Positions 24,672 to 27,600 of a stretch of 64,000 bases of DNA are shown here, piece by piece. The notes beneath the pieces are model-generated. The model did no database searches, was not told where the DNA came from, and saw nothing but the letters and a program-made list of their open reading frames with translations. Each line of letters begins with the position of its first letter. Positions within the stretch are counted from its first letter, which is position 1. Source of the DNA: Panorpa germanica (lineage: Eukaryota; Arthropoda; Insecta; Mecoptera; Panorpidae); NCBI GenBank assembly GCA_963678705.1, contig OY783208.1, positions 20,982,207-21,046,206 of the forward strand, written 5' to 3'. The translations under genes and the position numbers were made by a program.

Positions 24672-27600
24672 GTAAGACAAGCTTATTCTGTTTTAAATGA
24701 ATATTAAATAATAAGTGCGTTGTGTTTCATTATTTATTCAGCTCAAAACAAACTGAAGGAAGCAATATGTGTTTCTCGGGACATTAAAGCCACAACAGAA
24801 AGCAAAAGAAAACTATGGTGGGTGTTTACTGGAATCTCGGAGGAGAACACTATAGGAAAATCTTTAATGAAAATACAAGTGTTTGAAAAGGCAATCGAAA
24901 GGTAAGAAGTTTTTAAATCCAGCTTTTGATTTTGTTTAACTTCAGAGAGTTTATAATAAATTCAGTTGCTGGACACGAAAACACAAACAAGATGTCTAGC
25001 GTGTGGTACCCGATATTAAATAATTTAACTCTCTGCGTTACAATTTACCGGGACATCTTATTTATCTATAATGTAAGCAGTACTTGTAAACAAAATGAAT
25101 CATCCTTTCCTAGATCTTTTTCTTATTCTCTGCGTCCTTTCTTAGTCTTTAGGTCACTAACATAGGAATTACCTATCGGATTGATTTCTGTCTACTAGGT
25201 GCCAGCAAACTTGTATAGGCGAACAGAATATCGTACATTTATAACAATTGCAGGTGTCATCAAACGTTATTGCCCAATGGAATCAATGTCAAAGAAATTG
25301 TCACTGATCCAACCAGCAGTAGAGGATCTAATGCGATGAACTCACTAATTCGTACTGCAGCGATACACATTGGGCTGGTAGACATATTGAACACGGTTGG
25401 AGTGAAGCCAGACTTTATTATCGGTATGTTAAAGTATCGGCATTAACAGAGTGAAATAAATTTATAAATAACACAATGAAACTTTCCAGGTCATTTAGCC
25501 GGAGAACTAGGAAGCGCATATGCAGACGGATGCCTTACTTTGGAGCAGACAATTCTCGTTGCTTATTTAATAACTCGAGCAATTGACACATCATTTTCTA
25601 CGAATTTTGTAACAAACAAGTCAGACCTACTTAGAGATACCAACAAGATTATTCCATACCCTAAGACCCGCTCAGACAAGTGGATTTCTTTTCGTTTTTC
25701 GAGGGAATTGTGTTCCCCTGAGTACCTATTTGACAGTTTATTCAACTCGGCATTATTGAACCATGTGTGGAAAATTATCCCAAGGAATGCTCTTAGAATA
25801 GAGATGGGTTCACATGAACTTCCAGATGATCTTCAACATAAGCAGATTTCTCAAAATATTATAAATTTAGTCACAGATAAGTCCAATGATTTAATAAGTG
25901 TTCTCCAGACTGGATTGGGAAAGTAAGAATACCAAATTAATCTTTTAAAAGTTAATATTACAAATTACGTTACGTTTAATATTCTTGTAGATTGTACCAA
26001 GCTGGGTTTGATTTTAATTTGGCCCCTTTAAGTCCTGATGTTGTGTTTCCAGTTTCGCGTGGTACTCCTATGATAGCACCACTTGTAAAATGGAATCATG
26101 TTGAAAATAGGTAAGGAATAACTAAAAATACAACATATAAAATATATTAGACCTATACAACATAAAAAAACAGATTAGAACGCTACAAAGAGAAACATAT
26201 TTCTAACAAATTTCATGCTTAATATCTTTTTTTGTGCTTACGTTTTCTCGTCCGCAACTCCTCCTTGTTTTGCTCTGACTGCTCTTCATCAATTTTATTT
26301 ACTACCTGGCTCAAATATTGGACAAACCTTTTTAAATTCGACCTATTCTTAGACTTGCTCGTTCTCTGTTTTTAACACTTTTTGCTTTTTCTTTTGTCTT
26401 ATGTTTGTGTATTCTCTTCTTTTTTTTTTCGCTTGTCTTCTGATTCTTAATTTTTCCCTTTTTTCCTAACCTCCTTTATCCACCTTGTTCTTTTCGAACT
26501 TCCCTGCCTTATCTTAGGCTTTGACTTCTGCTTCGCTACACTCGTTTCCTCTCAATCGTTTATACCCTTTCTGTGTCGGTATCTCTTAATCGGTTATAAT
26601 CACTTTGTGCTCTTTTTCCTTGCTTATACTTCTCTTTTTCTATACCCCTTCTCTAATAACTTCATATTTATGTCTCTTTTATCATCCACACTTTTTTATA
26701 CTCCATCTTTTTTTTTCCTTCCATTCTTTTTCTTTTGCCTCGTCATTATCTCACTCTCTTTTACAGTTTTCTTTCCTTCCTTGTTAAATCTTGATCTATT
26801 TTGGTTTCCCTACATCAACGTTTCAATCTGCACTCAATAATCTACATTTTTCCTAATCAGTGTCAATACTTTTTCACAGATATCGCTTTTTCAGCATAAT
26901 ATCTTTCCATTTTCATTTCTTATTTTCAATTCCCGCTTTTGTGTCCGCTCTCTGCTAATTTCATTTTCTTTTCCCAGCGTATGACTCTCATTCCTGCCTC
27001 AATCCTCAAATTATTTCTCTTTACTTCTTCCCTTAGCAGGAATCGTGGAGTGCTTTTATCTGCGTTAAACACTTATTTCACGTTACCGTTATTTCTCAAG
27101 GGTTAATATAAACTGATCTATAATATTTATGCAATGGAAATGGTATTTTAGAATCTGTAAAGCAATAAAAAAATCAATCTAAGCAGTTCAGTTAATTGTT
27201 TACCAATTTCTGTTAGACACGTTTACACATCCGCTTCAATAGAAAAACTTCTGACTGGATCTTGGGAGGTGCCAATAAACATAGAAGATCTAGAACTACA
27301 ATATTTATCTGGACATGTTGTAGATGGTAAGTTTTTGATATATTTTTGGAAAGAATAATAAATACAATATTTTGTAGTATTTTGATACGATCATATAAAA
27401 CATTTGGTGTGATGTAAAAGTAAATTCCAAATATCAAAATAGATTTTAAAAACCGCTTTCGAGTATAATAAAAACAATTTAAAATCTTATAGACACCCTG
27501 TCCTATTTGTACTTAGAATGTCTTACTTCTAGGTAGAAATCTATTTCCGGCTACGGGATACCTGGCAATGGTTTGGGAAGGCCTTGCCATGATGCAAGGA

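Follow-up and report, generated by a model that had tools for sequence, protein, structure and literature searches.

Loss of the MAT ferredoxin-like subdomain in two tandem, probable FAS paralogues of Panorpa germanica

Two FAS genes lie head-to-tail on the + strand, as a tandem pair, within the window considered here (the whole stretch of 64,000 nucleotides from Panorpa germanica, contig OY783208.1), and in both of them the MAT domain is shortened. The question raised by this locus is whether a FAS can lose part of its MAT and still be of use, i.e. whether these genes are a working MAT-less lineage, the remains of one, or sequences that had no role once MAT was gone. On balance we favor the second reading, and consider it reasonably probable that the two copies belong to a known kind of MAT-less FAS that was once functional, was then duplicated, and is now represented by pseudogenes or near-pseudogenes.

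Gene models and the deletion in exon 11

The exon models of both copies were built by hand from splice borders, with genomic DNA alone and without transcripts. All internal splice borders are AG/GT (in copy 1, exons 2-32 follow AG, and GT follows exons 1-31), and the 20 exons common to both copies have equal lengths except exon 11, longer by 3 in copy 2, and exon 17, shorter by 1. Exon phases match up to exon 17, and beyond it only if a copy 2 donor 4 nt downstream is used. Of 4095 coding sites compared, 480 differ between the copies. No exon beyond 20 was identified in copy 2 before the window end at 64000, so that this copy ends before ER within the window.

Table 1. Positions of the features discussed, numbered along the window
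Feature	Position	Strand	Remark
FAS copy 1	13726..42105	+	2290 codons (ATG to TGA) in 32 coding exons, with an internal TAG
FAS copy 2	50134..62138	+	exons 1-20
Copy 1, eroded oxyanion motif	24831..24845	+	GISEE (human GMGTQ)
Copy 1, exon 11, MAT remnant without ferredoxin-like subdomain	25490..25922	+	AG/GT borders
Copy 1, MAT nucleophile position	25495..25497	+	Leu
Copy 1, malonyl-binding Arg position	25570..25572	+	Ile
Copy 1, deletion junction	25573..25623	+	residues 629-645; ends align to human FASN 607 and 692
Copy 1, in-frame TAG in ER	34324..34326	+	exon 22, codon 1489
Copy 2, KS position aligned to human Lys326	52750..52752	+	Asn (K346N)
Copy 2, exon 11, same deletion	54916..55351	+	junction one codon longer; AG/GT borders
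Copy 2, MAT nucleophile position	54921..54923	+	Ser kept
Copy 2, malonyl-binding Arg position	54996..54998	+	Ile
Copy 2, DH motif	57063..57361	+	HVIERK, interrupted by an intron; HVVDGR in copy 1
Copy 2, exon 17	59418..59537	+	one base shorter than in copy 1

A Pfam scan, covering copy 1 as one piece on either side of the TAG and, of copy 2, exon 11 only, revealed KS, DH, pseudo-KR, ER, KR, ACP and TE domains in that order in copy 1; PKS_DH_N lay 1.2 bits under the Pfam cut-off, and the DH is backed by PDB matches. Among PDB sequences, the DH-ER half of copy 1 was best matched by Drosophila FAS1 (442.6 bits, as against 377 for the best human chain), and its KS-MAT half scored 569-579 bits with FAS and 480-481 bits with EcPKS, favoring vertebrate FAS over EcPKS. 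Animal FAS-like PKSs (EcPKS1/2, and the arthropod clades of PMC10764717) have a similar domain order, and EcPKS2 is the best single match to exon 11 of copy 1 taken alone, whereas the KS-MAT half as a whole scores higher with FAS. From these comparisons, both genes are probably animal type I FAS paralogues of the insect type. Human FASN and Drosophila FAS1, the best PDB matches to the two halves of copy 1, share the order KS-MAT-DH-pseudoKR-ER-KR-ACP-TE; the present genes differ from them in an apparently inactive MAT that is 68-69 residues shorter and, in copy 1, in the TAG within ER.

The initial annotation held that both copies lack the ferredoxin-like subdomain of MAT, and alignments to human FASN and EcPKS2 together with a partial Pfam match confirm this. 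Between the anchors in human FASN (9b7z; query 629 = 607, query 645 = 692) there are 84 human residues against 15 in copy 1, i.e. 69 are missing, and 68 are missing from copy 2 owing to its extra codon. In the alignment of copy 1 with EcPKS2 (9ctk), 68 residues are skipped between adjacent residues of copy 1, and Pfam Acyl_transf_1 matches copy 1 over profile positions 1-119 of 319 only. We take the ferredoxin-like subdomain of human FASN to span approximately 616-684, and the missing part would be close to exactly that and little else. What remains is about three quarters of MAT (230 of some 299 residues) as a seemingly inactive remnant. Structure prediction for exon 11, run on an alignment of two rows, gave a mean pLDDT of 36, too low to be informative about the fold of the remnant. 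The shortening of the interval thus stands, but its proposed size, about 25 residues in place of roughly 110, does not: ungapped extension gives 26 against approximately 95 in human FASN.

As also proposed, the gap lies inside a single exon and is common to both copies, exon 11 being open and of identical phase in each. A hidden exon adjoining exon 11 that would restore the subdomain was ruled out, since introns 10 and 11 measure 66 and 68 bp, respectively, in copy 1 (in copy 2, 66 and 67 bp) and leave no room for the approximately 204 nt needed. The same intron lengths, the position of the gap within one open exon in each copy, and its presence in two copies as different as these also argue against the suspicion that the gap or the further lesions described below are artefacts of the assembly or of the exon model. 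That suspicion draws on the hand-made, transcript-free model and on the TAG, a single codon in one copy without read support; we regard it as very improbable.

Catalytic residues and known MAT-less enzymes

We take S581, R606 and H683 of human FASN to be the MAT nucleophile, the malonyl-binding Arg and the catalytic His. For the human nucleophile motif GHSLGE, copy 1 has GHLAGE and copy 2 has GHSAGE, and human AYWRG corresponds to AYLIT in both. The annotation had placed both the His and the Arg inside the gap; for the Arg this is incorrect, as its position is present and reads Ile, whereas the His position does fall at the junction, across which no His occurs in the 33 residues of copy 1 or the 34 of copy 2. 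The oxyanion motif is eroded in both copies, as had been noted, copy 2 having GISEQ where the human enzyme has GMGTQ. Neither copy possesses the full set of Ser, His, Arg and oxyanion motif, and only the Ser is retained, in copy 2. MAT therefore looks dead in both copies. The proposal that this is a FAS unable to load its own substrates is backed by the deletion and by the lost catalytic residues in both copies, and, as far as sequence can tell, the view that neither copy can self-load is well supported.

An insect FAS without MAT is already known as a kind. In Finck et al. 2016 (PMC5039406), MAT loss in cluster II insect FASs is presented as a frequent modification, independent in at least three orders (Orthoptera, Coleoptera and Diptera), and aberrant FAS expansions are reported from Orthoptera, Hemiptera, Coleoptera and Lepidoptera. 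The same source describes RNAi against the MAT-less TC15337 of Tribolium with a mortality of 60% in larvae and 40% in pupae, as well as sex-biased MAT-less transcripts in Chorthippus, and leaves undecided whether the MAT-less proteins act as FASs. Our two genes, FAS paralogues apparently without a working MAT, are of the kind described by Finck et al. 2016: as in Chorthippus FAS II-a/c and Tribolium TC15337 (PMC5039406), MAT was lost in paralogues. They differ from the published cases, as far as these are described there, in that some three quarters of MAT is kept as an inactive remnant and in that further lesions are present in both copies. A residue-level description of such a loss was not found in the literature searched, and the parts of PMC7503466 and PMC11855692 covered contain nothing on MAT loss; what the present locus contributes is an example of MAT loss in FAS paralogues described at residue level.

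Of four scans of viral contigs for relatives, one gave a single locus, with 38% identity over query residues 5-49, and the remaining three gave nothing. In the trans-AT (AT-less) polyketide synthases of bacteria, too, the chain that carries the condensing enzyme has no working AT, and KSs of such synthases are among the listed PDB matches to the KS-MAT half of copy 1; the genes here, in contrast, are animal FAS by sequence.

Constraint on the MAT remnant and gene conversion

Copies 1 and 2 were compared by NG86 dN/dS over 1365 codons with bootstrap intervals, and the ratio for the MAT remnant is 0.34 (0.21-0.57), so the remnant has been constrained since the split, for a good part of the time and in at least one copy. 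The overall ratio is 0.31 (0.25-0.37), a value that, like that for 1051-1365, includes the codons just after the missing base of exon 17, which raise dN slightly. KS gave 0.25, DH 0.51 (0.32-0.90) and exon 11 0.47 (0.25-0.86), and the junction stretch, at 0.72 (0.26-2.48), is indistinguishable from 1. Estimates by YN00 and ML were slightly above those of NG86 (0.34-0.40), for the whole and the remnant alike.

The ratios should be read together with signs of exchange between the copies. Three identical runs of 102-107 nt occur in the joined coding sequence, and a run of 107 nt was reached in 0 of 2000 trials in which the 480 differences were placed at random. The 107-nt run comprises the end of exon 10 and the start of exon 11 (25323-25495 in copy 1, 54749-54921 in copy 2) and ends in the codon of the nucleophile, just before the deletion; the two versions of intron 10 share 92% identity. 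These features point to probable gene conversion next to the gap, and the shared gap alone is therefore no proof of an origin before the duplication. The suggestion that the gap is older than the duplication is accordingly likely, yet unproved.

The identical runs could also be turned against selection altogether: the genes would have had no role since MAT was lost, and conversion between the copies, not selection, would have lowered dN/dS. We find this improbable. Conversion lowers dN and dS alike, the remnant retains a dN/dS of 0.32-0.37 when the identical patch is left out, and the 1365 codons hold no frame lesion in copy 1 and one in copy 2, unlike what long neutrality would leave at the dS between the copies of approximately 0.28.

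The constraint on the remnant after duplication is thus the reason for which we consider a past function of the MAT-less gene likely. According to the reading we favor, MAT in these FAS paralogues lost its ferredoxin-like subdomain and catalytic residues, as the sequence shows, and the leftover alpha/beta-hydrolase part may have stayed folded, as a spacer that separates the KS-linker from DH. Such a protein would be unable to take acyl or malonyl groups from CoA itself and would formerly have worked, probably with substrates from another FAS, possibly within a mixed dimer whose other subunit was full-length. The dimers of animal FAS permit such domain sharing, and the simplest working mode would be a full-length FAS partner whose MAT serves both ACPs. 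Both copies would later have gathered lesions that are probably inactivating. A more far-reaching version, to which we give only a small chance, is that MAT became a selected spacer after a precise loss of its subdomain, and that one of the copies or a relative is the partner-loaded MAT-less half of a mixed dimer; as part of that same doubtful idea, by analogy, such an enzyme might be the animal counterpart of the trans-AT synthases. Because the leftover MAT appears to have stayed constrained, the ideas of a non-catalytic scaffold and of loading by a partner subunit become open to testing.

Lesions outside MAT and the present state of the copies

The initial annotation described the rest of the enzyme as well conserved. 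This is true of the catalytic residues, as the KS Cys-His-His and the DH His-Asp are retained in both copies, but not of several other sites, where damage that the annotation did not mention is present. The frame of copy 1 is open on both sides of the TAG and otherwise open across its 32 exons. In copy 2 (stretch 59418-59551), splicing of exon 17 at the conserved donor brings 29 stops into the joined exons beyond it, whereas a GT 4 nt further on, used as donor, keeps the frame with 0 stops. Hence neither copy has a plainly uninterrupted frame, copy 1 because of the TAG and copy 2 because it is in frame only with the shifted donor. Copy 2 moreover has HGTAT for HGTGT in KS (G316A), and an Asn at the position aligned to KS Lys326 of human FASN, an important residue. 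In its DH the HxxxGxxxxP motif, which is functionally important, has changed from D-G-R to E-R-K, so that HxxxG is lost.

Departures from human or fly residues numbered 24 in copy 1 and 38 in copy 2, 4 of the latter lying a few codons at most past the base that exon 17 lacks. The difference is not significant (two-sided sign test, 0.10), and unequal decay of the copies was rejected.

Given the TAG in copy 1, and exon 17 with the KS and DH changes in copy 2, both copies are probably pseudogenes or close to it, and a present function of these two copies appears unlikely. The claim of a functional MAT-less lineage is therefore divided: it is upheld for the past by the dN/dS of the remnant, and is not supported for the present copies on account of the same lesions. 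If both copies are dead, they provide an example of the turnover of FAS paralogues.

This interpretation should be held with some caution. Each copy showed a single frame lesion, that of copy 2 can be bypassed via the nearby GT, copy 1 is open elsewhere in 32 exons, and the KS and DH catalytic residues are kept. The TAG of copy 1 may reflect an assembly error or a polymorphism, or mark a read-through site, and a dN/dS well below 1 is also compatible with genes that function at present. There is a minor but real chance for the alternative that one copy or both still work as MAT-less FASs and receive their substrates in trans, from a full-length FAS in a mixed dimer or through a separate transacylase. 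In its favor are the ratios of 0.3-0.4 that extend into the MAT remnant, the frame of copy 2 with the shifted donor, the kept KS and DH catalytic residues, and the Tribolium mortality and the sex bias in Chorthippus reported in PMC5039406. Against it stand the TAG in copy 1 and, in copy 2, the Asn at the KS Lys position and the loss of HxxxG from DH.

Two similar fragments, at 15748-16260 and 44289-44771, look retrotransposon-like by eye; Pfam matched RNase H in the former, and the latter gave no match at E 0.001. A fragment with the HTH domain of a Mos1-type (mariner) transposase lies in intron 7 of copy 1 (23307-23615), and a Copia-type retrotransposon with two open frames, containing gag, integrase and reverse transcriptase by Pfam, occupies 6635-9672.
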